Positions 1 to 61,527 of a stretch of 64,000 nucleotides of DNA are shown piece after piece. A program made the position numbers and the translations under genes. A model generated the notes under the pieces. The model made no database searches. It was not told the DNA's origin and saw only the letters and a program-made list of their open reading frames with translations. Every line of letters begins with the position of its first letter. Position 1 is the first letter of the stretch. Origin of the DNA: Protula sp. h YS-2021 (lineage: Eukaryota; Annelida; Polychaeta; Sabellida; Serpulidae); contig OX457025.1 of NCBI GenBank assembly GCA_949752745.1, positions 100,694,439 to 100,758,438 on the forward strand. Reading direction: 5' to 3'.

Positions 1-3000
1 TTCCAGCAATCCTTCCAGCAACCCCTTCCAGCAACCCTTCCAGCAACCCCTTCCAGCAACCCTTCCAGCAATCCTTCCAGCAACCCTTCCAGCAACCCCT
101 TCCAGCAATCCTTCCAGCAACCCCTTCCAGCAACCCTTCCAGCAACCCCTTCCAGCAACCCTTCCAGCAATCCTTCCAGCAACCCCTTCCAGCAACCCCT
201 TCCAGCAACCCCTTCCAGCAATCCTTCCAGCAACCCCTTCCAGCAACCCTTCCAGCAATCCTTCCAGCAACCCCTTCCAGCAATCCCTTCCAGCAACCCC
301 TTCCAGCAACCCTTCCAGCAATCCTTCCAGCAACCCCTTCCAGCAATCCTTCCAGCAATCCTTCCAGCAACCCCTTCCAGCAATCCTTCCAGCAATCCTT
401 CCAGCAATCCTTCAGCAATTCTTCCAGCAACCCTTCCAGCAACCCCTTCCAGCAACCCCTTCCAGCAACCCTTCAGCAACCCCTTCCAGCAACCCCTTCC
501 AGCAACCCTTCCAGCAACCCCTTCCAGCAACCCCTTCCAGCAACCCTTCCAGCAACCCCTTCCAGCAATCCTTCCAGCAACCCTTCCAGCAATCCTTCCA
601 GCAACCCCTTCCAGCAATCCTTCCAGCAATCCTTCCAGCAACCCCTTCCAGCAACCCTTCCAGCAACCCCTTCCAGCAATCCTTCCAGCAACCCTTCCAG
701 CAATCATTCCAGCAACCCCTTCCAGCAACCCTTCCAGCAATCCTTCCAGCAACCCCTTCCAGCAATCCTTCCAGCAATCCTTCCAGCAACCCCTTCCAGC
801 AACCCTTCCAGCAATCCTTCCAGCAACCCTTCCAGCAACCCCTTCCAGCAACCCCTTCCAGCAATCCTTCCAGCAACCCCTTCCAGCAATCCTTCCAGCA
901 ACCCTTCCAGAAAACCCTTCAAGCAACCCTTCCAGCAATCCTTCCAGCAATCCTTCCAGCAACCCCTTCCAGCAACCCTTCCAGCAATCCTTCCAGCAAC
1001 CCCTTCCAGCAACCCCTTCCAGCAATCCTTCCAGCAACCCCTTCCAGCAACCCTTCCAGCAACCCTTCCAGCAACCCCTTCCAGCAACCCCTTCCAGCAA
1101 TCCTTCCAGCAATCCTTCCAGCAACCCCTTCCAGCAACCCTTCCAGCAATCCTTCCAGCAACCCCTTCCAGCAATCCTTCCAGCAACCCCTTCCAGCAAC
1201 CCTTCCAGCAATCCTTCCAGCAACCCTTCCAGCAACCCCTTCCAGCAACCCCTTCCAGCAATCCTTCCAGCAACCCCTTCCAGCAACCCTTCCAGCAATC
1301 CTTCCAGCAACCCCTTCCAGCAATCCTTCCAGCAACCCCTTCCAGCAACCCTTCCAGGAATACTTCCAGCAACCCCTTCCAGCAATCCTTCCAGCAATCC
1401 TTCCAGCAATCCTTCCAGCAACCCCTTCCAGCAATCCTTCCAGCAATCCTTCCAGCAATCCTTCCAGCAATTCTTCCAGCAACCCTTCCAGCAACCCCTT
1501 CCAGCAACCCCTTCCAGCAACCCTTCCAGCAACCCCTTCCAGCAACCCCTTCCAGCAACCCTTCCAGCAACCCCTTCCAGCAACCCCTTCCAGCAACCCT
1601 TCCAGCAACCCCTTCCAACAATCCTTCCAGCAACCCTTCCAGCAATCCTTCCAGCAACCCCTTCCAGCAATCCTTCCAGCAATCCTTCCAGCAACCCTTC
1701 CAGCAATCATTCCAGCAACCCCTTCCAGCAACCCTTCCAGCAATCCTTCCAGCAACCCCTTCCAGCAATCCTTCCAGCAATCCTTCCAGCAACCCCTTCC
1801 AGCAACCCTTCCAGCAATCCTTCCAGCAACCCTTCCAGCAACCCCTTCCAGCAACCCCTTCCAGCAATCCTTCCAGCAACCCTTCCAGCAACCCTTCCAG
1901 CAACCCCTTCCAGCAACCCTTCCAGCAACCCCTTCCAGCAATCCCTCCAGCAACCCTTCCAGCAATCATTCCAGCAACCCCTTCCAGCAACCCTTCCAGC
2001 AATCCTTCCAGCAACCCCTTCCAGCAATCCTTCCAGCAATCCTTCCAGCAACCCCTTCCAGCAACCCTTCCAGCAATCCTTCAAGCAACCCTTCCAGCAA
2101 CCCCTTCCAGCAACCCCTTCCAGCAATCCTTCCAGCAACCCCTTCCAGCAATCCTTCCAGCAACCCTTCCAGCAACCCCTTCCAGCAACCCTTCCAGCAA
2201 TCCTTCCAGCAATCCTTCCAGCAACCCCTTCCAGCAATCCTTCCAGCAATCCTTCCAGCAATCCTTCCAGCAATCCTTCCAGCAACCCCTTCCAGCAACC
2301 CTTCCAGCAATCCTTCCAGCAACCCTTCCAGCAACCCCTTCCAGCAACCCCTTCCAGCAATCCTTCAAGCAACCCCTTCCAGCAATCCTTCCAGCAACCC
2401 TTCCAGCAACCCCTTCCAGCAACCCCTTCCAGCAACCCCTTCCAGCAACCCCTTCCAGCAATCCTTCCAGCAACCCCTTCCAGCAATCCTTCCAGCAACC
2501 CTTCCAGCAACCCCTTCCAGCAATCCTTCCAGCAACCCCTTCCAGCAATCCTTCCAGCAATCCTTCCAGCAATCCTTCCAGCAACCCCTTCCAGCAATCC
2601 TTCCAGCAATCCTTCCAGCAACCCTTCCAGCAATCCTTCCAGCAACCCTTCCAGCAATCCTTCCAGCAACCCTTCCAGCAATCTCTTCAAGCAACCCCTT
2701 CCAGCAACCCCTTCCAGCAATCCTTCCAGCAACCCCTTCCAGCAACCCTTCCAGCAATCCTTCCAGCAACCCTTCCAGCAACCCCTTCCAGCAACCCCTT
2801 CCAGCAATCCTTCCAGCAATCCTTCCAGCAACCCCTTCCAGCAACCCTTCCAGCAATCCTTCCAGCAACCCTTCCAGCAACCCCTTCCAGCAACCCCTTC
2901 CAGCAACCCCTTCCAGCAATCCTTCCAGCAACCCCTTCCAGCAACCCTTCCAGCAATCCTTCCAGCAACCCTTCCAGCAACCCCTTCCAGCAACCCCTTC

Positions 3001-6000
3001 CAGCAATCCTTCCAGCAACCCCTTCCAGCAACCCTTCCAGCAATCCTTCCAGCAACCCTTCCAGCAACCCCTTCCAGCAACCCCTTCCAGCAATCCTTCC
3101 AGCAACCCCTTCCAGCAATCCTTCCAGCAATCCTTCCAGCAACCCTTCCAGCAATTCTTCCAGCAACCCCTTCCAGCAATCCTTCCAGCAATCCTTCCAG
3201 CAACCCCTTCCAGCAATCCTTCCAGCAACCCTTCCAGCAACCCCTTCCAGCAACCCCTTCCAGCAATCCTTCCAGCAACCCCTTCCAGCAATCCTTCCAG
3301 CAATCCTTCCAGCAACCCTTCCAGCAATTCTTCCAGCAACCCCTTCCAGCAACCCTTCCAGCAATCCTTCCAGCAACCCTTCCAGCAATCCTTCCAGCAA
3401 CCCTTCCAGCAATCCTTCCAGCAACCCCTTCCAGCAACCCCTTCCAGCAACCCTTCCAGCAACCCTTCCAGCAATCCTTCCAGCAACCCTTCCAGCAATC
3501 CTTCCAGCAACCCCTTCCAGCAACCCCTTCCAGCAATCCTTCCAGCAACCCCTTCCAGCAATCCTTCCAGCAATCCTTCCAGCAACCCCTTCCAGCAATC
3601 CTTCCAGCAATCCTTCCAGCAACCCTTCCAGCAATCCTTCCAGCAACCCCTTCCAGCAATCCTTCCAGCAACCCCTTCCAGCAACCCCTTCCAGCAATCC
3701 TTCCAGCAACCCCTTCCAGCAATCCTTCCAGCAACCCCTTCCAGCAATCCTTCCAGCAACCCCTTCCAGCAACCCCTTCCAGCAATCCTTCCAGCAACCC
3801 CTTCCAGCAACCCCTTCCAGCAACCCCTTCCAGCAACCCCTTCCAGCAATCCTTCCAGCAACCCCTTCCAGCAATCCTTCCAGCAACCCCTTCCAGCAAC
3901 CCCTTCCAGCAACCCCTTCCAGCAATCCTTCCAGCAACCCCTTCCAGCAATCCTTCCAGCAATCCTTCCAGCAACCCCTTCCAGCAATCCTTCCAGCAAT
4001 CCTTCCAGCAACCCTTCCAGCAATCCTTCCAGCAACCCCTTCCAGCAATCCTTCCAGCAACCCCTTCCAGCAACCCCTTCCAGCAATCCTTCCAGCAACC
4101 CCTTCCAGCAATCCTTCCAGCAACCCCTTCCAGCAACCCCTTCCAGTAACCCCTTCCAGCAATCCTTCCAGCAACCCCTTCCAGCAATCCTTCCAGCAAT
4201 CCTTCCAGCAACCCCTTCCAGCAATCCTTCCAGCAATCCTTCCAGCAACCCTTCCAGCAATCCTTCCAGCAACCCCTTCCAGCAATCCTTCCAGCAACCC
4301 CTTCCAGCAACCCCTTCCAGCAATCCTTCCAGCAACCCCTTCCAGCAATCCTTCCAGCAACCCCTTCCAGCAATCCTTCCAGCAACCCCTTCCAGCAATC
4401 CTTCCAGCAACCCCTTCCAGCAACCCCTTCCAGCAACCCCTTCCAGCAACCCTTCCAGCAACCCCTTCCAGCAATCCTTCCAGCAATCCTTCCAGCAACC
4501 CCTTCCAGCAACCCTTCCAGCAACCCTTCCAGCACACCCTTCCAGCAATCCTTCAAGCAATCCTTCCAGCAACCCCTTCCAGCAACCCTTCCAGCAACCC
4601 CTTCCAGCAACCCTTCCAGCAATCCTTCCAGCAATCCTTCCAGCAATCCTTCCAGCAACCCCTTCCAGCAACCCCTTCCAGCAACCCCTTCCAGCAACCC
4701 TTCCAGCAATCCTTCCAGCAATCCTTCCAGCAACCCCTTCCAGCAACCCTTCCAGCAATCCTTCCAGCAATCCTTCCAGCAACCCCTTCCAGCAACCCCT
4801 TCCAGCAACCCCTTCCAGCAATCCTTCCAGCAATCCTTCCAGCAACCCCTTCCAGCAACCCCTTCCAGCAACCCCTTCCAGCAACCCTTCCAGCAATCCT
4901 TCCAGCAATCCTTCCAGCAACCCCTTCCAGCAACCCCTTCCAGCAACCCCTTCCAGCAACCCCTTCCAGCAATCCTTCCAGCAATCCTTCCAGCAACCCC
5001 TTCCAGCAACCCCTTCCAGCAACCCCTTCCAGCAACCCTTCCAGCAATCCTTCCAGCAATCCTTCCAGCAACCCTTCCAGCAACCCCTTCCAGCAACCCT
5101 TCCAGCAATCCTTCCAGCAACCCTTCCAGCAACCCCTTCCAGCAACCCTTCCAGCAATCCTTCGAGCAATCCTTCCAGCAACCCCTTCCAGCAACCCTTC
5201 CAGCAATCCTTCCAGCAACCCCTTCCAGCAACCCTTCCAGCAACCCCTTCCAGCAATCCTTCCAGCAATCCTTCCAGCAATCCTTCCAGCAACCCCTTCC
5301 AGCAATCCTTCCAGCAATCCTTCCAGCAACCCCTTCCAGCAACCCTTCCAGCAACCCCTTCCAGCAATCCTTCCAGCAACCCCTTCCAGCAACCCCTTCC
5401 AGCAACCCCTTCCAGTAACCCTTCCAGCAATCCTTCCAGCAATCCTTCCAGCAACCCTTCCAGCAACCCCTTCCAGCAACCCTTCCAGCAATCCTTCCAG
5501 CAACCCTTCCAGCAACCCCTTCCAGCAACCCTTCCAGCAATCCTTCGAGCAATCCTTCCAGCAACCCCTTCCAGCAACCCTTCCAGCAATCCTTCCAGCA
5601 ACCCCTTCCAGCAACCCTTCCAGCAACCCCTTCCAGCAATCCTTCCAGCAACCCCTTCCAGCAACCCTTCCAGCAACCCCTTCCAGCAATCCTTCCAGCA
5701 ACCCCTTCCAGCAACCCCTTCCAGCAACCCTTCCAGCAATCCTTCCAGCAACCCCTTCCAGCAACCCTTCCAGCAACCCCTTCCAGCAATCCTTCCAGCA
5801 ACCCCTTCCAGCAACCCTTCCAGCAACCCCTTCCAGCAATCCTTCCAGCAACCCTTCCAGCAATCCTTCCAGCAACCCCTTCCAGCAATCCTTCCAGCAA
5901 CCCCTTCCAGCAACCCTTCCAGCAACCCCTTCCAGCAACCCCTTCCAGCAACCCTTCCAGCAATCCTTCCAGCAACCCTTCTAGCAACCCCTTCCAGCAA

Positions 6001-9000
6001 CCCTTCCAGCAATCCCTCCAGCAACCCCTTCCAGCAATCCTTCCAGCAACCCCTTCCAGCAATATTTCCAGCAACCCCTTCCAGCAACCCTTCCAGCAAC
6101 CCCTTCCAGCAATCCTTCCAGCAACCCCTTCCAGCAATCCTTCCAGCAACCCCTTCCAGCAACCCTTCCAGCAACCCCTTCCAGCAATCCTTCCAGCAAC
6201 CCCTTCCAGCAACCCTTCCAGCAATCCTTCCAGCAACCCCTTCCAGCATCCCTTCCAGCAACCCCTTCCATCAACCCCTTCCAGCAACCCCTTCCAGCAA
6301 CCCCTTCCAGCAACCCTTCCAGCAATCCTTCCAGCAACCCCTTCCAGCAACCCTTCCAGCAACCCCTTCCAGCAATCCTTCCAGCAACCCCTTCCAGCAA
6401 CCCTTCCAGCAACCCCTTCCAGCAATCCTTCCAGCAACCCTTCCAGCAATCCTTCCAGCAACCCCTTCCTGCAATCCTTCCAGCAACCCCTTCCAGCAAC
6501 CCTTCCAGCAACCCCTTCCAGCAACCCCTTCCAGCAACCCTTCCAGCAATCCTTCCAGCAACCCTTCTAGCAACCCCTTCCAGCAACCCTTCCAGCAATC
6601 CCTCCAGCAACCCCTTCCAGCAATCCTTCCAGCAACCCCTTCCAGCAACCCTTCCAGCAACCCCTTCCAGCAATCCTTCCAGCAACCCCTTCCAGCAACC
6701 CTTCCAGCAATCCTTCCAGCAACCCCTTCCAGCAACCCTTCCAGCAATCCTTCCAGCAACCCCTTCCAGCAACCCTTCCAGCAATCCTTCCAGCAACCCC
6801 TTCCAGCAACCCCTTCCAGCAACCCTTCCAGCAATCCTTCCAGCAACCCCTTCCAGCAACCCTTCCAGCAATCCTTCCAGCAACCCCTTCCAGCAACCCT
6901 TCCAGCAATCCTTCCAGCAACCCCTTCCAGCAACCCCTTCCAGCAACCCTTCCAGCAATCCTTCCAGCAACCCCTTCCAGCAATCCTTCCATCAACCCCT
7001 TCCAGCAACCCCTTCCAGCAACCCTTCCAGCAATCCTTCTAGCAACCCCTTCCAGCAACCCTTCCAGCAATCCTTTCAGCAACCCCTTCCAGCAACCCCT
7101 TCCAGCAACCCTTCCAGCAACCCCTTCCAGCAACCCTTCCAGCAATCCTTCCAGCAACCCCTTCCAGCAACCCCTTCCAGCAATCCTTCCAGCAACCCCT
7201 TCCAGCAACCCTTCCAGCAATCCTTCCAGCAACCCCTTCCAGCAATCCTTCCATCAACCCCTTCCAGCAACCCCTTCCAGCAACCCCTTCCAGCAACCCT
7301 TCCAGCAATCCTTCCAGCAACCCCTTCCAGCAATCCTTCCAGCAACCCCTTCCAGCAACCCCTTCCAGCAACCCTTCCAGCAATCCTTCCAGCAACCCCT
7401 TCCAGCAACCCTTCCAGCAATCCTTCCAGCAACCCCTTCCAGCAACCCCTTCCAGCAACCCTTCCAGCAACCCCTTCCAGCAACCCTTCCAGCAATCCTT
7501 CCAGCAACCCCTTCCAGCAACCCCTTCCAGCAATCCTTCCAGCAACCCCTTCCAGCAACCCTTCCAGCAATCCTTCCAGCAACCCCTTCCAGCAATCCTT
7601 CCAGCAACCCCTTCCAGCAACCCTTCCAGCAATCCTTCCAGCAACCCCTTCCAGCAATCCTTCCAGCAACCCCTTCCAGCAACCCCTTCCAGCAACCCTT
7701 CCAGCAATCCTTCCAGCAACCCCTTCCAGCAACCCTTCCAGCAATCCTTCCAGCAACCCCTTCCAGCAACCCTTCCAGCAATCCTTCCAGCAACCCCTTC
7801 CAGCAACCCTTCCAGCAATCCTTCCAGCAACCCCTTCCAGCAATCCTTCCAGCAACCCCTTCCAGCAACCCCTTCCAGCAACCCTTCCAGCAATCCTTCC
7901 AGCAACCCCTTCCAGCAACCCTTCCAGCAATTCTTCCAGCAACCCCTTCCAGCAACCCTTCCAGCAATCCTTCCAGCAACCCCTTCCAGCAACCCTTCCA
8001 GCAATCCTTCCAGCAACCCCTTCCAGCAATCCTTCCAGCAACCCCTTCCAGCAACCCCTTCCAGCAACCCTTCCAGCAATCCTTCCAGCAACCCCTTCCA
8101 GCAACCCTTCCAGCAATCCTTCCAGCAACCCCTTCCAGCAACCCTTCCAGCAATCCTTCCAACAATCCTTCCAGCAACCCTTCCAGCAACCCTTCCAGCA
8201 ATCCTTCCAGCAACCCCTTCCAGCAACCCTTCCAGCAATCCTTCCAGCAACCCCTTCCAGCAACCCTTCCAGCAATCCTTCCAGCAACCCCTTCCAGCAA
8301 CCCTTCCAGCAATCCTTCCAGCAACCCCTTCCAGCAACCCTTCCAGCAATCCTTCCAGCAATCCTTCCAGCAACCCTTCCAGCAACCCCTTCCAGCAATC
8401 CTTCCAGCAACCCCTTCCAGCAACCCTTCCAGCAATCCTTCCAGCAACCCCTTCCAGCAACCCTTCCAGCAATCCTTCCAGCAACCCCTTCCAGCAATCC
8501 TTCCAGCAACCCCTTCCAGCAATCCTTCCAGCAACCCCTTCCAGCAACCCTTCCAGCAACCCCTTCCAGCAATCCTTCCAGCAACCCCTTCCAGCAATCC
8601 TTCCAGCAACCCCTTCCAGCAACCCCTTCCAGCAACCCTTCCAGCAATCCTTCCAGCAACCCCTTCCAGCAACCCTTCCAGCAACCCTTCCAGCAACCCC
8701 TTCCAGCAACCCTTCCAGCAATCCTTCCAGCAACCCCTTCCAGCAACCCCTTCCAGCAATCCTTCCAGCAACCCCTTCCAGCAACCCTTCCAGCAATCCT
8801 TCCAGCAACCCCTTCCAGCAATCCTTCCAGCAACCCCTTCCAGCAATCCTTCCAGCAACCCCTTCCAGCAACCCCTTCCAGCAATCCTTCCAGCAACCCC
8901 TTCCAGCAACCCTTCCAGCAACCCCTTCCAGCAATCCTTCCAGCAACCCCTTCCAGCAATCCTTCCAGCAACCCCTTCCAGCAATCCTTCCAGCAACCCT

Positions 9001-9039
9001 TCCAGCAACCCTTCCAGAAACCCCTTCCAGCAACCCTTC
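1..9039. repeat. 9-kb minisatellite of 12/13-bp units
   Basis: An unbroken tandem array runs from the window edge to about 9039. Almost every unit is one of three types: TTCCAGCAATCC (12 bp), TTCCAGCAACCC (12 bp) or TTCCAGCAACCCC (13 bp), mixed irregularly. Rare variants recur in the same local context: TTCTAG near 5980, 6566 and 7038; TTCGAG near 5161 and 5543; AATCATTCC near 704, 1707 and 1966. This indicates segmental duplication inside the array. The units contain no stop codon in any of six frames, so the long open frames here (Gly-Leu-Leu-Glu, Cys-Trp-Lys, Ala-Gly-Arg repeats) are by-products, not genes. Confidence 0.97.
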
Positions 9040-12735: not shown

Positions 12736-13508
12736 TTTTAATAACTCTTAACTTTTAATTCCAGGATCTTCTGTCAAAGTAATTAAGTACGAGTCACGCT
12801 TGTTTGACCAAAACAAAAAACAAAAAACAAAAACAAAACAAAAAAAAAAACGTGCATAAACAAGACAGGAGAAAGGGCGAGAAAACTCCTGTTGTCGCGT
12901 TATCTGAGGCATTAAAATATTGCCAGTCGGGCAAACAATTTTACACCCCCTCCTCTTGTAACAATTAAAGATATGGAGACGAGAATCTAATGTTTAAACT
13001 ATCCACAATATAACAGGCATATAAGGAATATTCTTTTCATGGTGGATCAATTTTGTCAATTTCTATTATAGTGAATCCTCAGTTAAATCATTTTGCTTTA
13101 ACTGATTTCTAAGAAAAAATCAAATGATCTCCAGATGAGGGAATGACTTTTTTTGGCTTTTGTTTTGTTTTGCTTTTTGTTTGTTTGCTTATTTAATAAG
13201 ATCAATGTTGCTTTGATTGGATTTGCGTGGGAATTATTGTTGTTCGTTTGTTTGCTCTATTACCTGTTGTGTAGCTGGTCACTATGTCCCGAGACATGCT
13301 TGTTTTATTCTGCTGTTCCCTCATCACATACGTACGTAAAAAATCCTAACACACAACCCAATCCACTGCCTGTTTATTGCGAGCTGGAGTAATTACATAT
13401 AGAGCTCAAAGAGACCGCTGCTTCAGAAAGCGCAGCTACGGATTGTACACATCATAAGCAATTTTTTATAATCAGTTATAATAACCAGAATTTGTCCAGC
13501 ATAAAAAT
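12736..13508. other. Upstream region of the PAN-type gene
   Basis: AT-rich DNA with an A-rich simple tract near 12815-12850. There is no gene. It would contain the promoter of the gene starting at 13509; a TATAATCA near 13467 is the only TATA-like word close to it, and I do not claim it as functional. Confidence 0.4.
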
Positions 13509-13770
13509 ATGTTTTTACACTTATATATGTTGTACATTGGAGTTGTGGTTAATGCCATAATTGAAAATGATTTTAAATCGGCGAAAAACAAAAAGGGAGT
13601 TGGTAACGTTATCGACACGACCAAAGCGCGTTCTAGGATCGACTGTTCTGCACAATGCTCCAAGGATGAAAACTGCGTCGCAGCAAATTTCGGTAACCGA
13701 CAATGCGAACTACTCGACGCGGCTGTGAATGCTTCGAATATGGTGGAGGAGGAAAACTGGGTGTATATGT
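13509..13770 (+). CDS. PAN-type gene, exon 1 (signal peptide and PAN)
   Basis: 262 nt, 87 codons plus one base. It ends TATATGT before a strong donor GTAAGC at 13771. The last base T joins AT of the next exon to make a Tyr codon. Confidence 0.75.
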
Positions 13771-17000: not shown

Positions 17001-20000
17001 ACCGATGGTTTTCGTAGTCAGAAATTAATTTTCATTGATGTCTTCAAATTAAGAAAAAGAACAGTGAGATCTGTCTTGTCAACAATAAATGAGCGATTTT
17101 CGATCAAATGTGAAGTAATTTTATGAGCGATGTGAGTTGGGAGATGTGTGTAGGAAAAAAAAAACATAAAATGGGGAAAAAGAAGCAATAGATGTTGATC
17201 TACACTCCTGTACAGACGACAAAAAAATAGTCCTTCCTGTTTGGCGCTAAAAATCATACAGCTACAAGAAAAATGGTGTATAATGGAAACGGATACGTAA
17301 GCTACGGGAGGCTGAACAGAAGACAGAAGATAAGCCTTTTCTATAAAATGGGCTGAAATTTAAAGTAGATATTCAATGTTTTCTTTGGAGCACTTTATTC
17401 CATAAAATGGCAAAATTATTCATGACCATCTCTATTATGTGCAGTTGCTGATTAATTATAATTAGTGTTTAACATATTATTGTTTCAGAGCTATTTATAT
17501 AGAGTCATCCAGTGAAACTAATTCTATTGTGGGAGGGGGGTGTAATCGATCGGATAATTTGCTTAAAAAGCCAACTGATCTCCATAATTACCTACACTGC
17601 CTTCCACCATTGTTATATATTATGGAACCATCATAAATACATACAATCCTCAATAATCACAATGAGTTTTTTTTACAGATAAGAAAGAGATAAACAAATC
17701 ACAAGTTCCAGGTAATGTATTCTTCACGTTTGTTTATCTTTTATTATTTCTGTGGTTGATTTTTTACACATACCCATAATAGTCAGAATATCAACGTGAC
17801 ACAGGTTTTAATATCAATAAAAAATGCGGAATACCTTGCAAATTTCAACCCCAAATGTGGAGCTTTAAATTACCCTTTTCAACAAGTTATATATTCATGA
17901 ACACAGGCACAGCTAGGTCGTACAGTTGATTATGAACATAAATCGCAAACTAAACAGATACTTGAGTGTTTGGGAAGAGTTTGGGTTTTCCGTTTTAATT
18001 GTTGGACGCGGAGCAGTTTCAAAGTTACTTTTTCTGTGAAAAAGTATTGTACTGATGAAAGGTAACCCTCTTTAACGAAAACGACAGTCCGGTAGTATTA
18101 TAATTTGCTCTTTGCTTGATGCAAAAATTTGCTTTTGATACCTAAATTTGTGAAGATTAAGCAGATATGCAAAATAATGGCAAAATAAGAGGATCTAAAC
18201 AAATAGAAATTACGATCAAATAATACCGTTAAATAAACATATAATGTTTTTGCATCCTAGAGACTTGTGTAACAATGCTAGGAGATGGACGGAATCAGCC
18301 AAATGAGTTAAACTTCCGGTCATTGAATAGGTTAAACATCTTCAAAAATATGACCATGCCCTTAAACGGAACCGTGAAGAACATCACGTACTACGCATAC
18401 CGAGGGGGCACGGCTTATATTTCGTTCTGGAAGGAAGTGACTCACAATGTTTACGAGCTCGTTAACAAATTGACTATAAGTTGCTCCAGCTATGGTCTGC
18501 ACACACAGGTTAGCAAGTCTGCAAAAACAAGTTGCGATACCGTATTTTATGTCAAGGCAAAGGCTACACATGGTCAGAATTCAGCGCTTGTTATTTGTAC
18601 CCTTTGACTGTTATACCAGATTCTAAATTGAAATTTGTAAACAAATGTACAGATGAAAGTTGAAGCTGTGTTTTCTATCTGAGTTTCTGAATTCAGCATT
18701 TTTTCATATATCATTGTTTCTGACTTTTTACTCACATCAAAAGTTCCTTAAAAATTTACTGAGACATCCTTTGGAGATAGAATTAAATGTGAATTCAGTA
18801 TTATTTGTGAAAGTCAACTTTTGTCTACGTCAATAAAAGTTGTTGCATCTTACCGAATACTTATTGCCGATTTATCAAACAAAGTCAAGCTTGTCAATGA
18901 TTTTACAATATGTAAACATGCACTATTGGGTCTAGGAAAGCTTCAAGTGCCACTGAGCCACGTCCCGCCAGACAACCCCCGCCTTGATACTTGCCGCTAG
19001 CGGACAACTGTCGGCGACGCATATCTCCAACTCAAAAAACTTTGTTCTTCACTTTTAAATGAAGCTGATCCTCCACAGAAACCTTAATTGCAATTTATGT
19101 AACAGACTAGTACTTTATAGTAATGTATCTGAACTTCATATGAACTATAAGCTCATTTTATAACATGTGATTAATTGTTAAAAGAACCTTAATTGCATGT
19201 TAGTTTTTAAAGAAGCCAATTAATTACATCATAAAAGGCGAGGTAAACATCACATAACAGGATAATGTCTTACGCATCATGCTGTTTTTCTGACACATAA
19301 TAATCAGATTGAAATGGGTGGCAGTTATCCGCCAGCAGCACTTTTTCAGCGACACATGTATCAGCGGCACTTGTTACAGCGGCAGTTGTACTGTATCCTA
19401 TATTATCATCATCGCTTTTAACTCACCGTAGTCAACCATATGTGGTTGGGTCTATGTTTCACTGACAAAAATATCATTAGGAACAGGGCGATTTGCCTTA
19501 TTTCCGTATTCCACCCTTAAAACATATGGGATAAGTTTGCAGTCTTAATGACCTTTAGTTTCAAGACCCTCAGTCATCTCCAATAGTATCAGAAATGTGT
19601 TACACGATTTTGAACTTCTATTCGGTGTTCCATGCAACATGAGCTTCGTGATATAGTTGCAATAATAACGAATAATAAAGTATATAACTTGACCTCAATT
19701 ACACTCTTGTTTACTTAACTCCAACCGAAAAACCCGGTGGGCGTTATTTATTAGTAAATATGGGAACCCTGATAGCTGGTCTAACCCGCTTCATTTGCTT
19801 AGCTAAGGCAATTGGAGCGAATTTATATAGAGTCATCCAGTGAAACTAATTCTATTGTGGGAGGGGGGTGTAATCGATCGGATAATTTGCTTAAAAAGCC
19901 AACTGATCTCCATAATTACCTACACTGCCTTCCACCATTGTTATATATTATGGAACCATCATAAATACATACAATCCTAAATAATCACAATGAGTTTTTT

Positions 20001-22980
20001 TTACAGATAAGAAAGAGATAAACAAATCACACGTTCCAGGTAATGTATTCTTCACGTTTGTTTATCTTTTATTATTTCTGTGGTTGATTTTTTACACATA
20101 CCCATAATAGTCAGAATATCAACGTGACACAGGTTTTAATATCAATAAAAAATGCGGAATACCTTGCAAATTTCAACCCCAAATGTGGAGCTTTAAATTA
20201 CCCTTTTCAACAAGTTATATATTCATGAACACAGGCACAGCTAGGTCGTACAGTTGATTATGAACATAAATCGCAAACTAAACAGATACTTGAGTGTTTG
20301 GGAAGAGTTTGGGTTTTCCGTTTTAATTGTTGGACGCGGAGCAGTTTCAAAGTTACTTTTTCTGTGAAAAAGTATTGTACTGATGAAAGGTAACCCTCTT
20401 TAACGAAAACGACAGTCCGGTAGTATTATAATTTGCTCTTTGCTTGATGCAAAAATTTGCTTTTGATACCTAAATTTGTGAAGATTAAGCAGATATGCAA
20501 AATAATGGCAAAATAAGAGGATCTAAACAAATAGAAATTACGATCAAATAATACCGTTAAATAAACATATAATGTTTTTGCATCCTAGAGACTTGTGTAA
20601 CAATGCTAGGAGATGGACGGAATCAGCCAAATGAGTTAAACTTCCGGTCATTGAATAGGTTAAACATCTTCAAAAATATGACCATGCCCTTAAACGGAAC
20701 CGTGAAGAACATCACGTACTACGCATACCGAGGGGGCACGGCTTATATTTCGTTCTGGAAGGAAGTGACTCACAATGTTTACGAGCTCGTTAACAAATTG
20801 ACTATAAGTTGCTCCAGCTATGGTCTGCACACACAGGTTAGCAAGTCTGCAAAAACAAGTTGCGATACCGTATTTTATGTCAAGGCAAAGGCTACACATG
20901 GTCAGAATTCAGCGCTTGTTATTTGTACCCTTTGACTGTTATACCAGATTCTAAATTGAAATTTGTAAACAAATGTACAGATGAAAGTTGAAGCTGTGTT
21001 TTCTATCTGAGTTTCTGAATTCAGCATTTTTTCATATATCATTGTTTCTGACTTTTTACTCACATCAAAAGTTCCTTAAAAATTTACTGAGACATCCTTT
21101 GGAGATAGAATTAAATGTGAATTCAGTATTATTTGTGAAAGTCAACTTTTGTCTACGTCAATAAAAGTTGTTGCATCTTACCGAATACTTATTGCCGATT
21201 TATCAAACAAAGTCAAGCTTGTCAATGATTTTACAATATGTAAACATGCACTATTGGGTCTAGGAAAGCTTCAAGTGCCACTGAGCCACGTCCCGCCAGA
21301 CAACCCCCGCCTTGATACTTGCCGCTAGCGGACAACTGTCGGCGACGCATATCTCCAACTCAAAAAACTTTGTTCTTCACTTTTAAATGAAGCTGATCCT
21401 CCACAGAAACCTTAATTGCAATTTATGTAACAGACTAGTACTTTATAGTAATGTATCTGAACTTCATATGAACTATAAGCTCATTTTATAACATGTGATT
21501 AATTGTTAAAAGAACCTTAATTGCATGTTAGTTTTTAAAGAAGCCAATTAATTACATCATAAAAGGCGAGGTAAACATCACATAACAGGATAATGTCTTA
21601 CGCATCATGCTGTTTTTCTGACACATAATAATCAGATTGAAATGGGTGGCAGTTATCCGCCAGCAGCACTTTTTCAGCGACACATGTATCAGCGGCACTT
21701 GTTACAGCGGCAGTTGTACTGTATCCTATATTATCATCATCGCTTTTAACTCACCGTAGTCAACCATATGTGGTTGGGTCTATGTTTCACTGACAAAAAT
21801 ATCATTAGGAACAGGGCGATTTGCCTTATTTCCGTATTCCACCCTTAAAACATATGGGATAAGTTTGCAGTCTTAATGACCTTTAGTTTCAAGACCCTCA
21901 GTCATCTCCAATAGTATCAGAAATGTGTTACACGATTTTGAACTTCTATTCGGTGTTCCATGCAACATGAGCTTCGTGATATAGTTGCAATAATAACGAA
22001 TAATAAAGTATATAACTTGACCTCAATTACACTCTTGTTTACTTAACTCCAACCGAAAAACCCGGTGGGCGTTATTTATTAGTAAATATGGGAACCCTGA
22101 TAGCTGGTCTAACCCGCTTCATTTGCTTAGCTAAGGCAATTGGAGCGAATGTCAATGCCCGCTTTCCAAACCTAACCGGATACGAACTCTGAACTTTGGG
22201 GTTTCCAGACTAACACTCAAACAAATGGAGGGTACCGTCACCCTTACAAATCCGATTTACTTATTTAATCAATCCAGATCAACATCAACAATCTGCGTTA
22301 CTGCGCGCTAAGAAAAAGTGATACTGCACAATTGACATTGTCAACGGAACGGAAGCTGAGAACAATACGAGAATAATGCTCATGTTAATAAAAAATCCTG
22401 ATATGAATATAGACACCAGTTATCGAGGTCAAACAGTGGCCAGCTTTGTCTTGTGCCTTTGTTTTGTTATATTTTTCCTAATATTATAACTTGTGTCATG
22501 ATGTAGATATTTCCCAATGCAGACAGATAGGAGAAAATAATTGCATTTTACGGTCGTCTTCTGTCATGGATTGTATTTAAAAATTTTTCTAAGTGGCTTC
22601 ATGTAGATTTTTTGGTACATTTCTCTAAACAGTAATGGTTTTTGGCAGAGTTAATTCCTATTTTGCTGTTAAATAAGATTAATTGCGTTATTACCAAATG
22701 CATTTTTTGAATGTTTTAGGAATTTACTGCCGATGATAATATGCGAGTAGAGGAAGGCAATGCACTGGGAGTGCATTACTCACATGACAGTGATAAAGGT
22801 ATTTTGTACTACGAATTGGCAGATCGTCGAAGAACTCCGTCTGTGACCATGAGTAACTATGTTAACGTAGAAATACTAAACGATGGCTGGATAAATGGGG
22901 AAACAATTGATTTCAATGCCCTAAATGATGTTTTTGAAGGCCGACAAGCTGTTTCGCTACAGATTGTAATTTGTCTCTAG
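13509..22980 (+). CDS. Secreted PAN/apple-like protein with duplicated exons
   Basis: Exon model: 13509-13770, 17679-17711, 18261-18508, then 22720-22980, with the second and third exons repeated at 20007-20039 and 20589-20836. All junctions are GT-AG and the phases agree (1, 1, 0). One copy of the duplicated exons gives 267 residues. Residues 1-16 (MFLHLYMLYIGVVVNA) look like a signal peptide. Residues about 38-87 have the Cys pattern of a PAN/apple-like domain (IDCSAQC, ENCVAANF, QCELL). The rest resembles a beta-rich extracellular domain that I recall from mollusc secreted proteins but cannot name (WKEV, then GVHYSHDSDKG). It is probably exported; its ligand is unknown. Start choice: first Met after an in-frame TAA at 13482. 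It could also end by intron retention (see findings). Confidence 0.7.
13797..14073. repeat. CA-rich microsatellite block, first copy
   Basis: (CA)n mixed with CCCTCC and CACACTCCCCACACAACACT, starting about 30 bp inside the first intron of the PAN-type gene. A related block lies at 14585-14850. Confidence 0.9.
14585..14850. repeat. CA-rich block, second copy
   Basis: This shares the non-CA words CCACACTCCCCACACAACAC and CACCCCTACACCCCC in the same order as the block at 13797-14073, so the two blocks share an origin rather than being independent CA expansions. Confidence 0.85.
14851..17678. other. Rest of intron 1 of the PAN-type gene
   Basis: Apart from the repeat at 15395-16110 this is AT-rich intron with poly-A, C-run and T-run tracts. 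I see no exon or RNA gene in it. The small open frames (for example 16875-17126) lack splice support. Confidence 0.5.
15395..16110. repeat. TCAAGGTCA-family repeat array in intron 1
   Basis: About five imperfect units of roughly 130-150 bp with TCTCTAACCGTTTTCGAGATA, CGTGACCCAGAAGGTCAAGG and TATGTAACGTTGTTTAGGCC. They are related to the units at 10.2 kb but a distinct subfamily (CGTTGTTTAGG in place of CGTCGTAGAGG). Confidence 0.75.
17679..17711 (+). CDS. PAN-type gene, 33-nt exon, copy 1
   Basis: A T-rich tract and ACAG precede it and GTAATG follows. It encodes KKEINKSQVP between split codons. Its incoming phase of 1 matches exon 1 and its outgoing base G joins AG of the next exon to give Glu. 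Confidence 0.65.
18261..18508 (+). CDS. PAN-type gene, middle exon, copy 1
   Basis: 248 nt after the acceptor CATCCTAG. It encodes TCVTMLGDGRNQP through SSYGLHTQ and stops in phase 0 at CACACAG before GTTAGC. If the donor is ignored the frame continues to a stop at 18605-18607. Confidence 0.65.
18832..18837 (+). terminator. AATAAA, copy 1 (possible early poly(A) site)
   Basis: AATAAA about 225 bases after the read-through stop at 18605-18607, followed by GTTGTTGC. It could end a short transcript that keeps the intron. The same hexamer recurs at 21160 in copy 2. Confidence 0.35.
20007..20039 (+). CDS. PAN-type gene, 33-nt exon, copy 2
   Basis: Identical to the exon at 17679 except for one base at 20032 (A to C), which changes a Gln codon CAA to His CAC. 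Both splice sites are intact. Confidence 0.6.
20589..20836 (+). CDS. PAN-type gene, middle exon, copy 2
   Basis: I see no base difference from the exon at 18261-18508. This copy is the one adjacent to the terminal exon. Confidence 0.65.
21160..21165 (+). terminator. AATAAA, copy 2 (possible early poly(A) site)
   Basis: Copy of the hexamer at 18832, 2328 bp downstream in the duplicated block. Confidence 0.3.
22060..22440 (-). repeat. Dispersed element with tRNA-like part, copy A
   Basis: It matches 27770-28205 over several stretches in the same order (CTTTCCA, GGATACGAACTCTGAAC, AAAAAGTGATACTGCACAATTGA, CAGTTATCGAGGT). On the minus strand a B-box-like GAGTTCGTATCC is visible. The right breakpoint of the 2328-bp duplication (22148) falls inside it. 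Confidence 0.5.
22720..22980 (+). CDS. PAN-type gene, terminal exon
   Basis: 261 nt after the acceptor ATGTTTTAG, entered in phase 0. It encodes EFTADDNMRVEEGNALGVHY and on to a stop TAG at 22978. Joined to the middle exon it reads GLHTQ-EFTADD without a break. Confidence 0.7.
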   Translation, partial: EFTADDNMRVEEGNALGVHYSHDSDKGILYYELADRRRTPSVTMSNYVNVEILNDGWINGETIDFNALNDVFEGRQAVSLQIVICL

Positions 22981-56408: not shown

Positions 56409-56568
56409 TCAAAGCTGGATCAGATCCCCGACGACGGCCTGCTGTTGTTTCGTCTGGTCCTGGTGCTCGAGCCACGCCACTAAGTTATCGTCCAGCTCGT
56501 CCGCACTCAAGTCCGTGGTAAAGGTCGAGTGTCTGAACGGGTTCGTCTCCGCATCATTCGCGCGGCGC
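56409..56568 (-). CDS. LDLRAP1-like, terminal exon g
   Basis: After TTTCTCTCACAG it encodes RRANDAETNPFRHSTFTTDL and on to GDLIQL, with TGA at 56411-56409. An acidic amphipathic stretch (SADELDDNLVAWLEHQ) could bind an adaptor appendage. Confidence 0.78.
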
Positions 56569-58293
56569 CTGTGAGAGAAAAAGATGTCACGTGACGCAAC
56601 ACATGACGCGGACTGATATCGTTTCTGTTTTCTTTTGCTGCCAGCACAGGGCATGTCGCAGAAACGTAGCAGAAATAGCAAACACCTCCCTCCCTCCCTC
56701 GCCCCTTCCCCCTCAATCCCTCCCTCCCTCCCTCGCCCCTCCCTGTCAATCCCTCCCTCGCCCCTCCCTGCCAATCCCTCCCTCCCTCGCCCCTCCCTGT
56801 CAATCCCTCCCTCGCCCCTCCCTGTCAATCCCTCCCTCCCTCGCCCCTTCCCCCTCAATCCCTTCCTCCCTCCCTCCCCCTCCCTGTAAATCCCTAACTC
56901 GCCCCTCCCTGTCAATCCCTCCCTCCCTCGCCCCTTCCCCCTCAATCCCTTCCTCCCTCCCTCCCCCTCCCTGTAAATCCCTAACTCGCCCCTCCCTGTC
57001 AATCCCTCCCTCCCTCGCCCCTTCCCCCTCAATCCCTTCCTCCCTCCCTCCCCCTCCCTGTAAATCCCTAACTCGCCCCTCCCTGTCAATCCCTCCCTCC
57101 CTCGCCCCTTCCCCCTCAATCCCTTCCTCCCTCCCTCCCCCTCCCTGTAAATCCCTAACTCGCCCCTACCTGTAAATCCCTCCCTCGCCCCTCCCTGTCA
57201 ATCCCTCCCTCGCCCCTCCCTGTCAATCCCTCCCTCCCTCGCCCCTTCCCCCTCAATCCCTTCCTCCCTCCCTCCCCCTCCCTGTAAATCCCTAACTCGC
57301 CCCTCCCTGTCAATCCCTCCCTCCCTCGCCCCTTCCTCCTCAATCCCTTCCTCCCTCCCTCCCCCTCCCTGTAAATCCCTAACTCGCCCCCACCTGTAAA
57401 TCCCTCCCTCGCCCCTCCCTGTCAATCCCTCCCTCGCCCCTCCCTGTCAATCCCTCCCTCCCTCGCCCCTTCCCCCTCAATCCCTTCCTCCCTCCCTCCC
57501 CCTCCCTGTAAATCCCTAACTCGCCCCTCCCTGTCAATCCCTCCCTCCCTCGCCCCTTCCCCCTCAATCCCTTCCTCCCTCCCTCCCCCTCCCTGTAAAT
57601 CCCTAACTCGGCCCTACCTGTAAATCCCTCCCTCGCCCCTCCCTGTCAATCCCTTCCTCCCTCGCCCCTTCCCCTCCTCCTATTATATTTTTTCTAGCCT
57701 TCCCTTTTGACAACACCACTAAGCACGTTCACAAATTCTTCATCTCTTCCACGATACACCACGATGGTTTTTTTCTTATTCCATAGCTTCAATTCAACGC
57801 TAGTTTCTTTTTTTTCTGACGTCAGCACCTGACTTATACCTTATAGTACACCCGGATACATGCTATCTGTTTACACGTTCACGAACTTATACTGAACGCC
57901 TTACAGCAATGAACACCGCCTGTATTACTCCGCCGTCTTACACGACAATAATTACAGCAAAACACCCGTTAATGAACACCTCTGCTGGGAGAACACGCGC
58001 CCTACTAGCGCCAGGTTCAGCACACATACTCCTGTCCGCCACTTGTTAACGAACACCTCGTTTCTTATGAACATTTCCTCCACCACCCACCCACCCCACC
58101 CCTATCCCGCTCCATTAGTACCGCATTATGTGCATTATAAAGTGTTCACATTTTACAAACAAAGAACAGAGGGGGCCAAGAAGAGGTGAGACAAAAAGAC
58201 AGGAAAATGCGTTACCCGCTCCGGACTGGGGAATCGGTGAAGCTGTCCTCGAAGCCCTGCAACACAGCAGTAACACCCAGTCACGTGACACTC

Positions 58294-58384
<91 letters not shown>

Positions 58385-61300
58385 CGAGAAGAAACCCCGC
58401 CACTCATCTGCTTCTTATTGCCACAGGAAATTTTATCATTTTTTTTTTTTTTGTCCTGGGGTGACAACAGTTAGCTGAGGGTTTCCTGGGTGACAAATTT
58501 GCATTCCTAAAAGCGGCAAATACAGCTATCTCTGACGTCAACAAAACAATGATACGGATCTTGCGTAGCAAGTTTTTTTTTAAATTTTTCTTTAGCCTTA
58601 TCCAATGCCAGGAGAATTGACAACGGGTTGACTGGAGGCTTTATCAAAATCTTGGCCAGCGGTAAGTGAAACTGGATCGTGAACTTTCTACATGTTTAAA
58701 ACCTATCAAAACTTACAAAACTATTACAACGCAACTGCAACTAGAGCGGCCTGTGGGTGGAAAACAAGTACAGCATTTATTAAAAGTCCTCTCGAAAAAA
58801 AATTACGACGGCCTGGTGTAGAGCAACGCCACCTGTTAATGAGGCCCTCTTTTCCTTCCCCCACCCCGCACACACAGTACAGGGACCTGGTGTACAGCAG
58901 CACGGCCTGTGAATAAACCCCCCCCCCCTCCCACCCATCCCCCCTCGCCCCCACCTCCCCTCCAGTACACATAGTACCACTGCCTGTTGTAGAGAAGCAC
59001 AACCTGTGAATGAGCCCTCCATCTCTCCCCACCCACGCAGCACCACCTGTGAATGTGCGCCCCCTTAGCCCCCCCCCCCCCCTCTCTCTCCCCTCTGCAC
59101 ACTCAGTACAGCCCGCGGCCCGTGAACAGAAACACCTACTTGTGAATAAGACACCCTCCCCAGCCCCCTCTGCACACCCAGTATCGCTGCCCCTGTACAG
59201 AAGCACCCACCTGTGACTGAGGCCGCTGTGACGAGGAGGAAGACGACGCACAACTGCTCGACGTGTCATCGCCGCGCTCCCGGAACGCTTCCTGTGACAA
59301 CACAATCCGCTCTCTACATCTCCCTGGCAACTTTCAAACTACCACCTTTTTATACTACGTTCGTCTCCAAGATAACCACACATTTTTTTTCTTAAATGTT
59401 TTCTTACCCTCTTAATATATACATATATATTTTCTTGGCTGCTCAAGACAAAAGTCACAATTTTTAGAGCCAGAAGCAGCAGAGGTATCACATCTTTTTT
59501 CAAACATTCACATTTTCCAGCACGACCTTGAATCTGACCTCGTGTTTGGCTTTCTCTAATTTCTCTGTGTGATCCTCGAAGTCTTCTTTGGCAATCTGAA
59601 ACGCTTGTGCTACGGTCAAGGTCACCGCCTCGGCCTGCAAAATACGTCGACAGCTTTAGTCGTACCAACAAGACAGTGGGCGCAGATGAAGGCAGATGAA
59701 GGCCTATTAATAGATCTGGGCGGATCCAGGACATGGCCCCAAGGGCGGACTGGTTTTTACATGACGTTTTCGAATTACGTAATTGTTCAACATGACGTCA
59801 GCCGGGTCCTTCAACAAACACTTCATAAGCACGTGTGACGTCAGTCACGAATGTAACAAAAAAGTACCCACTTTCACGCCTTTTTGAAGCATTTTTTTTT
59901 ATTTTATCTTTAACTGTTTTATTGTTACCTTTTTTTGGGGGGGGGGGATTTAACAACTTCATTACATAAATTTAATATCCTTTTTTAGATTTCATAATAA
60001 CACACGACTTTTGTTCTTGGGGCATAGAGGGAGGAATTTAACAACTTCCTCACATAAATTTAATATCCCTTTTTTATTTAAATTTAGAAAAACGCACGAT
60101 TTTCTTCTTGGGGCAGAGAAAAGCATGACACTCCATGTTCTCGTTCTCCGTGTTGCGGGCTATGTACGCAAACACTCTCTCATGACTCTTGTCTGCTGTG
60201 CAAAAGTGAATTCTGCAAACCGACAACACACCGCTCTAGTCTCAAACGTGTTGCGCATGCGCACACGGCAGACACTTCTCACGTATTTCATTTTTCGTAT
60301 CATTTCTTTTTTTTTGTGAGTAAATTGACAGGAGTTTCGAAAACTGAAATAAAAAAAAAACACGACTGTGAAATTCTAAAGTCAAAAGCGGTTAAATGCA
60401 GAAACGCAAAAAAAAAAATGAAACCAGAAGTATTTACGTAATAATACTGAGTTTGCTCAGAACCAAAATCAGAAAGGTACCTGTAAATACTGAGACTGGT
60501 AAGTACCAAAATCAGAAGGGTACCTGATACTGAGACTTAAGTACTGAAATCAGATAGGTTCCTGTAAATACTGAAACGGGTAAGTACTAAAAGCGGAAAG
60601 GTACCTGTAAATACTGAGACTGGTAAGTACTACTTTACAATCCAAATTGGTGACTACAATTCCTTTGCTTGAGATGGAAATCTCCACTTTGGGAAGTTTT
60701 TTGGCAGATTTTGCCTGTAACAAAATAACCAGTGGATGAATCACTTTAAGGAATAATTGTCTGAATAGTTTAATCTACTTTATACAGTGAAAGAGAAATG
60801 CCAAGCTTCGAGCAGCCAGATCAGCTGCAGGTGCCACAATGCTACTCGTTTGGTTATCCATTCGTTTGTTGTTGCTGTTTTTCTTAATTAAAAAGACGTT
60901 CAAGCAACTATTATAACACAGTCGTGACATAGATTCTGCCATAGCAAATGTAGTTTAGGAAATCAAGACTCAAACTGTCTTGGCTAAATACCCATTGAAA
61001 ATGGTTCTTATTTATTACCCACAAATTTTAAACCGAACGACATTCCCTTTGCTGGTGAGATTTTTTTTTTTTTTTTGCTTTGTTTGTTTTGTTTTTTATG
61101 TTCAATCCAACAAACACAAGAAATGAATATTAACGCGCTCAGAACGAGCCCCAATCAGCCCTGACTGCCTACCAGAACGAGCCCCGATCAGCCCTGACTG
61201 CCTACCAGAACGAGCCCCGATCAGCCCTGACTGCCTACCAGAACGAGCTCCGATCAGCCCTGACTGCCTACCAGAACGACCCCAATCAGCCCTGACTACC

Positions 61301-61527
61301 TACCAGAACGATCCCCAATCAGCCCTGACTGCCTACCAGAACGAGCCCCAATCAGCCCTGACTACCTACCATATCGACGATGATTTTGACCGCCTTAGAG
61401 CTGACTTTGTTGCCATAGCTCTCCCCCTCCACCAGCTCCTCCACCAGGGTGCTGCCGAGGTACTCCAGGTAGAATTTTATTCCCGTCCTCACAGGCTCCT
61501 TTTCTTGTCCCCACTTGTCTTTTATCT
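56409..61527 (-). CDS. LDLRAP1/ARH-like PTB-domain endocytic adaptor, 5'-incomplete
   Basis: Seven exons (61527-61370, 60714-60605, 60212-60098, 59634-59512, 59291-59211, 58256-58216, 56568-56409) join with consistent phases into 261 residues ending DLIQL. The first four form a PTB/PID domain: FYLEYLGSTLVEE, KKLPKVEISISSKGIVVT, SIYR-IHFCTADKSHERVFAY, ECHAFLCPKKKI, then AEAVTLTVAQAFQIA. The order and wording resemble LDLRAP1 (ARH), an adaptor linking LDL-receptor-type tails to clathrin and AP-2; GULP/CED-6 is the next-best match. The tail has FEDSF (FxDxF, the AP-2 alpha-appendage motif) and NPF (EH-domain ligand). The N-terminal exon, needing a phase-1 donor, was not found between 61527 and 64000. 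Four of six introns start with tandem repeats. Confidence 0.82.
56685..57683. repeat. Polypyrimidine minisatellite in the last intron
   Basis: About 1 kb of CCCTCCCTCGCCCCTCCCTG, TCAATCCCT and TAAATCCCTAACTCGCCCC units, grouped into higher-order units of about 120 bp near 56800-57150. In transcript sense it is polypurine (GGGAGGG), with recurring TTTACAGGTAGGGG and TTTACAGGGAGGGG words that resemble splice donors. Confidence 0.95.
57684..58215. other. Intron DNA between exons f and g
   Basis: Unique sequence of fairly even composition. No extra exon was recognised. Confidence 0.5.
58216..58256 (-). CDS. LDLRAP1-like, 41-nt microexon f
   Basis: Lies between GTGTTGCAG and GTAACG and encodes GFEDSFTDSPVRS plus two bases. 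It is the only segment I found that takes phase 0 to phase 2, as the next exon needs. A (GTT)n tract lies just upstream in transcript sense. Confidence 0.65.
58294..58384. repeat. (AAC)n microsatellite, about 30 units
   Basis: An uninterrupted AAC run on plus, (GTT)n in transcript sense, ending about 36 bases upstream of the acceptor of microexon f. Confidence 0.97.
58385..58789. other. Intron DNA
   Basis: Intron between exons e and f; T-runs only. Confidence 0.5.
58790..59221 (-). repeat. Degenerate minisatellite built on exon e donor
   Basis: In transcript sense six diverged units contain CTCATTCACAGGTGGTGCTT, CTGTACA, GTACTG and GTGTGCAG, spaced about 50-100 bp. The first unit is the true exon end and donor (CAGTCACAGGTGGGTGCTTC). 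Confidence 0.8.
59211..59291 (-). CDS. LDLRAP1-like, Ser-rich linker exon e
   Basis: 81 nt between TTGTCACAG and GTGGGT, phase 0 to 0. It encodes EAFRERGDDTSSS and a serine/glutamine run. Its last bases and donor are echoed by a minisatellite in the next intron. Confidence 0.7.
59512..59634 (-). CDS. LDLRAP1-like, PTB exon d (C-terminal helix)
   Basis: Begins after TATTTTGCAG with AEAVTLTVAQAFQIAKEDFE. The end is placed at AAAAT before GTGAAT (59511). An in-phase alternative at TTCAAG before GTCGTG (59527) would shorten it by five residues. Confidence 0.75.
59947..60119 (-). repeat. 86-bp doublet spanning exon c donor
   Basis: One copy covers the end of exon c and its donor (CCCCAAGAAGAAAATCGTGC) plus intron. 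The second (59947-60030) has CCCCAAGAACAAAAGTCGTG and the same following TAATTTAAATTTATGTGAGG-type sequence. Confidence 0.8.
60098..60212 (-). CDS. LDLRAP1-like, PTB exon c
   Basis: 115 nt after GTTTGCAG. Its first A completes an Arg codon, then IHFCTADKSHERVFAYIARN and on to CPKKKI. The donor is the less usual GTGCGT at 60097. Confidence 0.82.
60440..60640 (-). repeat. 43-bp tandem repeat spanning exon b donor
   Basis: In transcript sense AGTACTTACCAGTCTCAGTA, TTTACAGGTACC and TTCTGATTTT repeat about four times. The unit nearest the exon includes its last 26 bases and the donor. Confidence 0.88.
60605..60714 (-). CDS. LDLRAP1-like, PTB exon b
   Basis: 110 nt after TTGTTACAG. It encodes AKSAKKLPKVEISIS through SLSIY plus AG. 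The donor GTACCT at 60604 is repeated downstream in the intron. Confidence 0.8.
61139..61369 (-). repeat. 33-bp tandem repeat starting at exon a donor
   Basis: In transcript sense seven units of GGTAGGCAGTCAGGGCTGAT plus CGGGGCTCGTTCT. The first unit begins at the splice donor itself (ATATG then GTAGGTAGTC). Confidence 0.93.
61370..61527 (-). CDS. LDLRAP1-like, PTB exon a
   Basis: 158 nt after TGTGTATTCTCAG. It is entered in phase 1 and encodes IKDKWGQEKEPV through VKIIVDM. The donor GTAGGT at 61369 is the first unit of a 33-bp array. Confidence 0.8.

Follow-up and report, generated by a model that had tools for sequence, protein, structure and literature searches.

Minisatellites whose tandem units run across an exon/intron boundary have been described in amphioxus under the name of mirages. 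They occur in Adh3, troponin C, the globins BflGb6 and BflGb9, and PGBD5 (PMC3087553, PMC3902484, the mirages of PGBD5 and troponin C being those of PMC3902484) and lie at 5' or 3' ends, have unit lengths specific to each gene and often contain AG/GT signals. Here we describe an LDLRAP1-like gene, contained in a stretch of 64,000 nucleotides of genomic DNA (the window), in which arrays sharing these properties are anchored at four of the six visible donors. We think it probable that these arrays are mirages, that is, short tandem duplications that spanned an exon/intron junction by chance and later grew into minisatellites. The locus differs from the amphioxus examples in that the host is probably not a cephalochordate, and in that the arrays occupy four introns of one gene and donors only. 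In addition, regular splicing was suggested by RT-PCR for the amphioxus mirages; the present arrays are described from genomic sequence.

The gene lies on the minus strand (61527-56409) and encodes an LDLRAP1/ARH-like protein with a phosphotyrosine-binding (PTB) domain (Pfam PID, E 8.6e-17); the top homologue is LDLRAP1-B of Patella vulgata (55% identity, E 2.7e-52). Seven exons were found (Table 1), which join in a single open frame that closes with a stop codon where the C terminus is expected, and make six donors and seven acceptors visible. The ends of Ea to Ed and of the last exon were taken from alignment to LDLRAP1 homologues (tblastn) together with the reading frame; those of Ee and Ef, which are not alignable to homologues, were set by frame and the GT/AG rule alone. 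No first exon could be recognised, either in the window or among the 25 tblastn matches listed for the next 9.9 kb.

Table 1. Exons and repeat arrays of the LDLRAP1-like gene, in window coordinates. A raised dot marks the exon/intron boundary; TRF, Tandem Repeats Finder.
Feature	Position	Strand	Donor or relation to splice site	Basis
Exon Ea, PTB domain	61370..61527	-	donor 61369 ATG·GTAGGT	tblastn and one-frame gene model
33-bp minisatellite	61140-61371	-	copy 1 flush with Ea donor	TRF, 7.1 copies, 95% match
Exon Eb, ends SIY plus two bases of R	60605..60714	-	donor 60604 CAG·GTACCT, phase 2	
43-bp minisatellite	60443-60632	-	takes in Eb end and donor	TRF, 4.5 copies, 80% match
Exon Ec (..CPKKKI)	60098..60212	-	donor 60097 ATC·GTGCGT	tblastn and gene model
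Doublet	59941-60119	-	takes in Ec end and donor	TRF, 88 bp, 2.0 copies, 77% match
Exon Ed	59539..59634	-	donor probably 59538 GAG·GTCAGA, without array	tblastn and gene model
Exon Ee (..RPQSQ)	59211..59291	-	donor 59210 CAG·GTGGGT	one-frame gene model
Diverged array	58816-59224	-	real Ee end and donor and five degenerate copies	
Exon Ef	58216..58256	-	donor 58215 CGG·GTAACG, without array	
TCCC-rich higher-order array	56687..57669	-	last intron; large minisatellite of the gene, not boundary-anchored	TRF
Last exon found, ends ..DLIQL stop	56409..56568	-	 	homologue alignment and gene model

The array pattern at the donors is real. Taking as the left edge of an array a position with a downstream score of 40 or more and an upstream score below 26, tandem arrays begin at donors 61369, 60604, 60097 and 59210; the other two donors (59538 and 58215) are without an array in both the edge test and the test for boundary copies, and none of the seven acceptors has an array or boundary copies by the edge and alignment tests. 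The array at Ea enters the exon by 2 nt, and six further copies bear CTG·GTAGG(T/C)AGTC. At Eb the unit includes 26-28 nt of exon, and one intronic copy is exact over 26 nt that encode the conserved residues SIYR. The doublet at Ec includes about 22 nt of exon and places a copy of the donor 92 nt away, with the exon tail identical at 18 of 20 nt. The Ee array looks the oldest. Its copies span the donor together with at most about 14 nt of exon (TTCACAG·GT and variants) and are too diverged for TRF; the best six alignments nevertheless sum to 203, compared with 116 +/- 8 in shuffled sequence (maximum 137; none of 200 shuffles reached the observed value). Beyond the four real donors, 15 copies could be registered, and 13 of them retain the GT. 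The TCCC-rich array of the last intron was negative in both donor and acceptor tests, and copies neither splice site. The preliminary description had reported arrays that start at, or copy, the exon end and donor in four of six introns, had held that they arose separately, and had noted additional donor-like GT words in the copies. All three observations stand, TRF recovering three of the arrays and alignment the fourth.

Two further sequence features of the gene may be recorded. On the plus strand the window contains eight GGTAAGT words, four of which are antisense to the gene (60498, 60579, 60622 and 58661), and three of these four belong to the 43-bp array and to the exon end from which it was copied; the minus strand contains none. 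A pure (ACA)30 microsatellite occupies 58294-58385, in the intron after Ee.

The four arrays look like separate events of different ages, because their units are unrelated in length and sequence and because their internal match differs (95%, 80% and 77%, with the fourth beyond the reach of TRF). The exon tails taken up by the Eb and Ec arrays encode residues common to the homologues shown (SIYR, and CxKxKI, which is CPKKKL in one); being conserved coding sequence, they indicate that copying proceeded from exon to intron. The opposite order of events, in which the arrays formed first as intronic repeats and were then reached by a creeping exon end, could be entertained for Ea, whose array shares only 2 nt with the exon, and for Ee, whose end has no alignable counterpart in homologues. 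For Eb and Ec, however, it conflicts with the conservation of the copied tails, and at two other loci of the genome (L062 and L043, described below) the copied exon tail and exon head, respectively, lie inside Pfam-matched exons. We therefore regard creep of the splice site as quite unlikely.

By definition, the unit of a mirage spans the boundary. The arrays at Eb, Ec and Ee do so, with about 14-28 nt of exon plus the donor; the Ea array does so marginally, being flush with the donor and sharing 2 nt. If the arrays are mirages, then small tandem duplications would arise at many places in the genome, and those that straddle a junction would survive because the outer splice site could still give mRNA. 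Surviving duplications would expand by slippage or unequal exchange, while the first donor would remain in use and the added copies would stay in the intron and drift neutrally. Selection on coding sequence would presumably bar growth deeper into the exon, leaving a sharp array edge at the junction. The high rate of minisatellite birth in this genome, which is rich in repeats, would then yield mirages without any targeting.

An alternative raised in the preliminary description is that selection retains the copies as decoy donors, or more generally as regulators of splicing. Retention of GT in 13 of the 15 copies is in keeping with this idea, as is the link drawn between a minisatellite and alternative splicing in Caenorhabditis elegans (PMC4039745). 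When all copies are pooled, mismatches affect 28 of 135 positions in the donor columns and 151 of 516 elsewhere (p 0.052), but this difference is inflated because the Ee rows are poorly registered: without them, in the three arrays that align cleanly, the figures are 15/90 for the donor 9-mer and 49/321 for the rest of the unit, and the donor columns are no better kept. Nor does the U1 match of the copies exceed that of the real donor, except in one copy and there by one base. Reading on through the Ea, Eb, Ec and Ee donors meets a first in-frame stop after 18, 55, 24 and 75 nt, respectively, and only two copies come before such a stop: the one at Eb +43, which has lost its GT, and the one at Ee +71, use of which would shift the frame. 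Splicing at the copies would lead to stops or a frameshift, and selection for decoys, as formulated earlier, appears very unlikely.

The arrays might also be relics of intron birth. In the Rogers model introns originate by tandem duplication of an exon piece bearing AGGT, and mirages have been put forward as one way in which new introns arise (PMC3087553). Under this model the two ends of an intron should resemble one another, but in all six introns the donor and acceptor regions look unrelated, being no more alike than shuffles; the highest likeness (20 of 500 shuffles as high) belongs to the intron after Ef, which has no array at its donor. We consider a Rogers-type origin extremely improbable. 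The RdRp gene of potato (PMC4974935) is comparable in that a tandem duplication there contains splice signals; at the present locus, in contrast, no acceptor has been made from a copy, and donor and acceptor regions look unrelated. Tandem repeats are difficult to assemble, which could point to an artefact of assembly or sequencing, yet the copies differ from each other, the units differ from array to array, and separate loci share the same structure; an artefact is hardly credible. Lariat-templated copying was weighed for the Ea array, whose unit begins exactly at the GT; since exon sequence is present in the other three units, it was not retained as an explanation for the four arrays together.

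How surprising is such a gene? Left edges occur at 3.3% of sampled positions of the window (the first 9.5 kb being excluded from this background) and at 5.5% of those within the gene. At the latter rate, edges at four of six donors have a binomial probability of 1.3e-4; when five minisatellites are placed at random in the introns, the fraction of trials with four of them no more than 30 nt from a donor is 6e-5; and the contrast between 4/6 donors and 0/7 acceptors has a hypergeometric probability of 0.021. All of these figures concern a preselected gene, noticed for the pattern itself. The gene also lies in a region rich in repeats, which make up 57% of the interval from 46 to 62 kb (on an array list drawn from TRF and the gene's own arrays).

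A comparison with other genes was made in the source assembly (863 Mb, 218 contigs). Exons of two conserved families with many introns were located through 87 matches to Myosin_head, of which 59 were used, and 67 to Cpn60_TCP1, of which 40 were used. The resulting sample of myosin and CCT loci comprises 26 stretches, chosen for their exon density, with 138 kb in all and 99 of the 154 exon matches; HSP60-like matches and those that were haplotig-like or in near-identical clusters were left out. The 96 donors and 98 acceptors of the 99 exons were predicted by the GT/AG rule, which fails to pick up at least one donor that looks genuine (L043) and may misplace other sites (the acceptor of L062). 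TRF found 74 arrays (minimum period 10, minimum score 50), covering 14.4% of the sequence. Counting array edges that fall between 60 nt inside an exon and 3 nt outside it, arrays are present at 3 of the 96 donors, where 3.24 are expected, and at 5 of the 98 acceptors, where uniformly distributed edges give 3.31. A second criterion, based on alignment, demands that a copy extend 8 nt to either side of the boundary and that the deeper exon not be repeated. This is the case at 9/96 donors and 6/98 acceptors, compared with 601 of 11718 intronic control sites (5.1%; p 0.10 for the 15 hits among 194 boundaries, 0.097 for donors alone); five of the 15 boundary hits score below 38, a range in which chance and low complexity matter.

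Boundary rates are thus near those of random placement, and no targeting is needed. The enrichment of repeat starts at donors for which the preliminary description had suggested a test is absent from the TRF arrays of the myosin and CCT sample, and the donor-directed duplication mechanism proposed there is not supported by the alignment counts either. The same kind of repeat is found at both intron ends in other genes, which suggests that mirages are a by-product of repeat formation rather than of splice-site targeting. On our reading, the LDLRAP1-like gene is an outlier in the tail of a broad distribution, situated in a repeat-dense stretch.

Several observations weigh against this conclusion. 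The gene itself is an outlier on the donor side, with 4/6 donors and 0/7 acceptors as compared with 18 of 370 of its own intronic control sites. In the myosin and CCT sample, stricter alignment cut-offs of 34, 38, 45 and 55 give boundary rates of 5.7, 5.2, 4.1 and 3.6% against control rates of 3.5, 2.7, 2.0 and 1.3%, a 1.6-2.8 fold excess with nominal p values of 0.11, 0.045, 0.06 and 0.015; at cut-off 38 the counts are 10/194 and 475/17594, and at cut-off 55 they are 7/194 and 230/17594. Five cut-offs were tried in all, and the p values are only a guide because control sites overlap each other. Finally, a coarse sliding test of the 59 myosin exons, the loci of which are also part of the larger sample, placed array edges near 6/59 donors as opposed to 54/1082 controls, and at a higher cut-off near 4/59 donors as opposed to 20/1082. 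Acceptors showed no excess in the first comparison (3/59, controls 55/1082) and gave 2/59 and 29/1082 in the second. By eye, some of the donor hits of the coarse test proved to be arrays lying farther out than the donor itself, or an exon duplication. One hit of this test represents a duplicated exon (L040 at 2281), and another a repeat with a tRNA-like stretch (L043 at 1064).

Could DNA be duplicated preferentially at junctions, or in some genes at donors, by a mechanism coupled to transcription or splicing? The donor excess of the coarse myosin test, the weak boundary excess at the stricter cut-offs, and the within-gene contrast and placement simulation given above all speak for it. Against it, acceptors are struck about as often as donors (6/98 and 9/96; at the strictest cut-off, 55, the boundary hits are five acceptors and two donors), TRF arrays fit random placement, and the LDLRAP1-like gene was selected because it is conspicuous. 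We hold such a mechanism to be unlikely, though a donor bias confined to some genes may exist. There is a similarly small chance that a process of the lineage favors the birth of minisatellites at junctions, by some two- to threefold over introns, with some genes strongly donor-biased. Were that so, introns would lengthen from their edges, and spare splice sites would accumulate from which new splice forms or introns could be drawn.

Mirages are not restricted to a single gene of this genome and occur at both 5' and 3' intron boundaries. The clearest copying outside the LDLRAP1-like gene includes a CCT gene (L062), where a 33-nt exon tail and GTGCGTC are repeated in a 66-bp unit at the donor, the array extending to +2193. 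In a myosin gene (L041) a 34-bp unit present in about 27 copies takes in 20-24 nt of exon and the donor. Another myosin locus, L043, has an acceptor mirage (76-bp unit, 3.1 copies) and also a diverged donor mirage with about 35 nt of exon, the latter seen by eye and not among the 15 hits of the alignment criterion. Further myosin mirages lie at the donor of L044 and the acceptor of L047, and a PTB exon (L002), which we take to be Shc-like, has one with a 40-bp unit at its acceptor. This last came from a survey of ten PTB matches, in which high scores were seen at L002, at L003 (a simple repeat) and at L007 (an array that stops short of the exon match); only L002 was counted as a mirage. Eight of the ten matches were read in contig orientation, which exchanges the donor and acceptor sides of those on the minus strand (L003, L005, L006 and L008). 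Pkinase gave 133 matches, and since these are mostly long exons its 30 loci (L010-L039) stand outside the analysis.

Some other features of these loci deserve mention. One exon of L062 is seemingly flanked on both sides by boundary-crossing arrays, the acceptor being a predicted one. Near the myosin donor of L043 (1083-1388, gene orientation) lies a 120-bp tandem repeat with the tRNA-like stretch GGTTCGAATCCCGCC; we presume that this could be a tRNA-derived short interspersed element in tandem. Four pairs of myosin matches with equal scores, on G000:C74 and G000:C11:7267119-7278461, are probably alternative haplotigs.

These results probably extend boundary-copying minisatellites beyond amphioxus, to a spiralian. 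Homologue names had first pointed to a gastropod; the trees do not decide among phyla. In an LDLRAP1 tree built without cephalochordate sequences the gene falls among molluscs and annelids (97/94 support), on a long branch; constraining it to group with deuterostomes worsens the fit (approximately unbiased (AU) test, p 0.047), and constraining it to group with molluscs does not (0.408). A second protein, CCT7, is less decisive. The best 120 of 8000 scored proteins include none named as Branchiostoma and none above 74% identity; the named spiralians there (annelids, a brachiopod, a chiton and nemerteans) reach 70-73% and the highest unnamed proteins 74%, insects and vertebrates are similar or lower, and the first by E-value is a beetle protein with 63% identity. 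In the CCT7 tree, which likewise includes no cephalochordate, the sequence groups weakly with two annelids (88/81), but the tree does not discriminate between larger groups: groupings with vertebrates and with spiralians have AU values of 0.35 and 0.33, respectively. A literature search over titles and the opening lines of abstracts, with most subscription journals outside its coverage, returned no report of mirages outside cephalochordates. The metallothionein gene of an earthworm offers another large minisatellite in an intron of an invertebrate gene (PMC12783039); its units average about 180 bp, and copying of exon ends is not described in the part of that report available.

In the sample analysed here the rate of mirages is close to that of random repeat birth, which supplies a simple null model for these curious repeats, previously considered as a way for new introns to arise. 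The arrays also carry a warning for gene predictors: exon ends and donors may be present in many near-identical copies, about 27 in the case of one myosin array.

The remainder of the window contributes little to the comparison of boundaries. A Pfam scan of 133 of its 218 listed open reading frames gave three weak families, none usable for this purpose, and there was no match to Rfam at gathering cut-offs. An exon encoding a PAN domain (13485-13770, plus strand) has a CA-rich array some 33 nt beyond the predicted donor, and this array contains no boundary copies. The window opens with a 9-kb array (1-9039) of a 12-base unit, TTCCAGCAACCC, in some 728 copies, beginning at the window edge. Two identical open reading frames, 18245-18604 and 20573-20932, lie 2,328 bp apart, and a repeat recurs at equal spacing (19333 and 21661); together they represent the direct duplication of a longer stretch. 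Downstream of the LDLRAP1-like gene, between 46851 and 55771, lies a dense run of minisatellites with units of 48, 30, 38, 19, 25/145, 27 and 29 bp.

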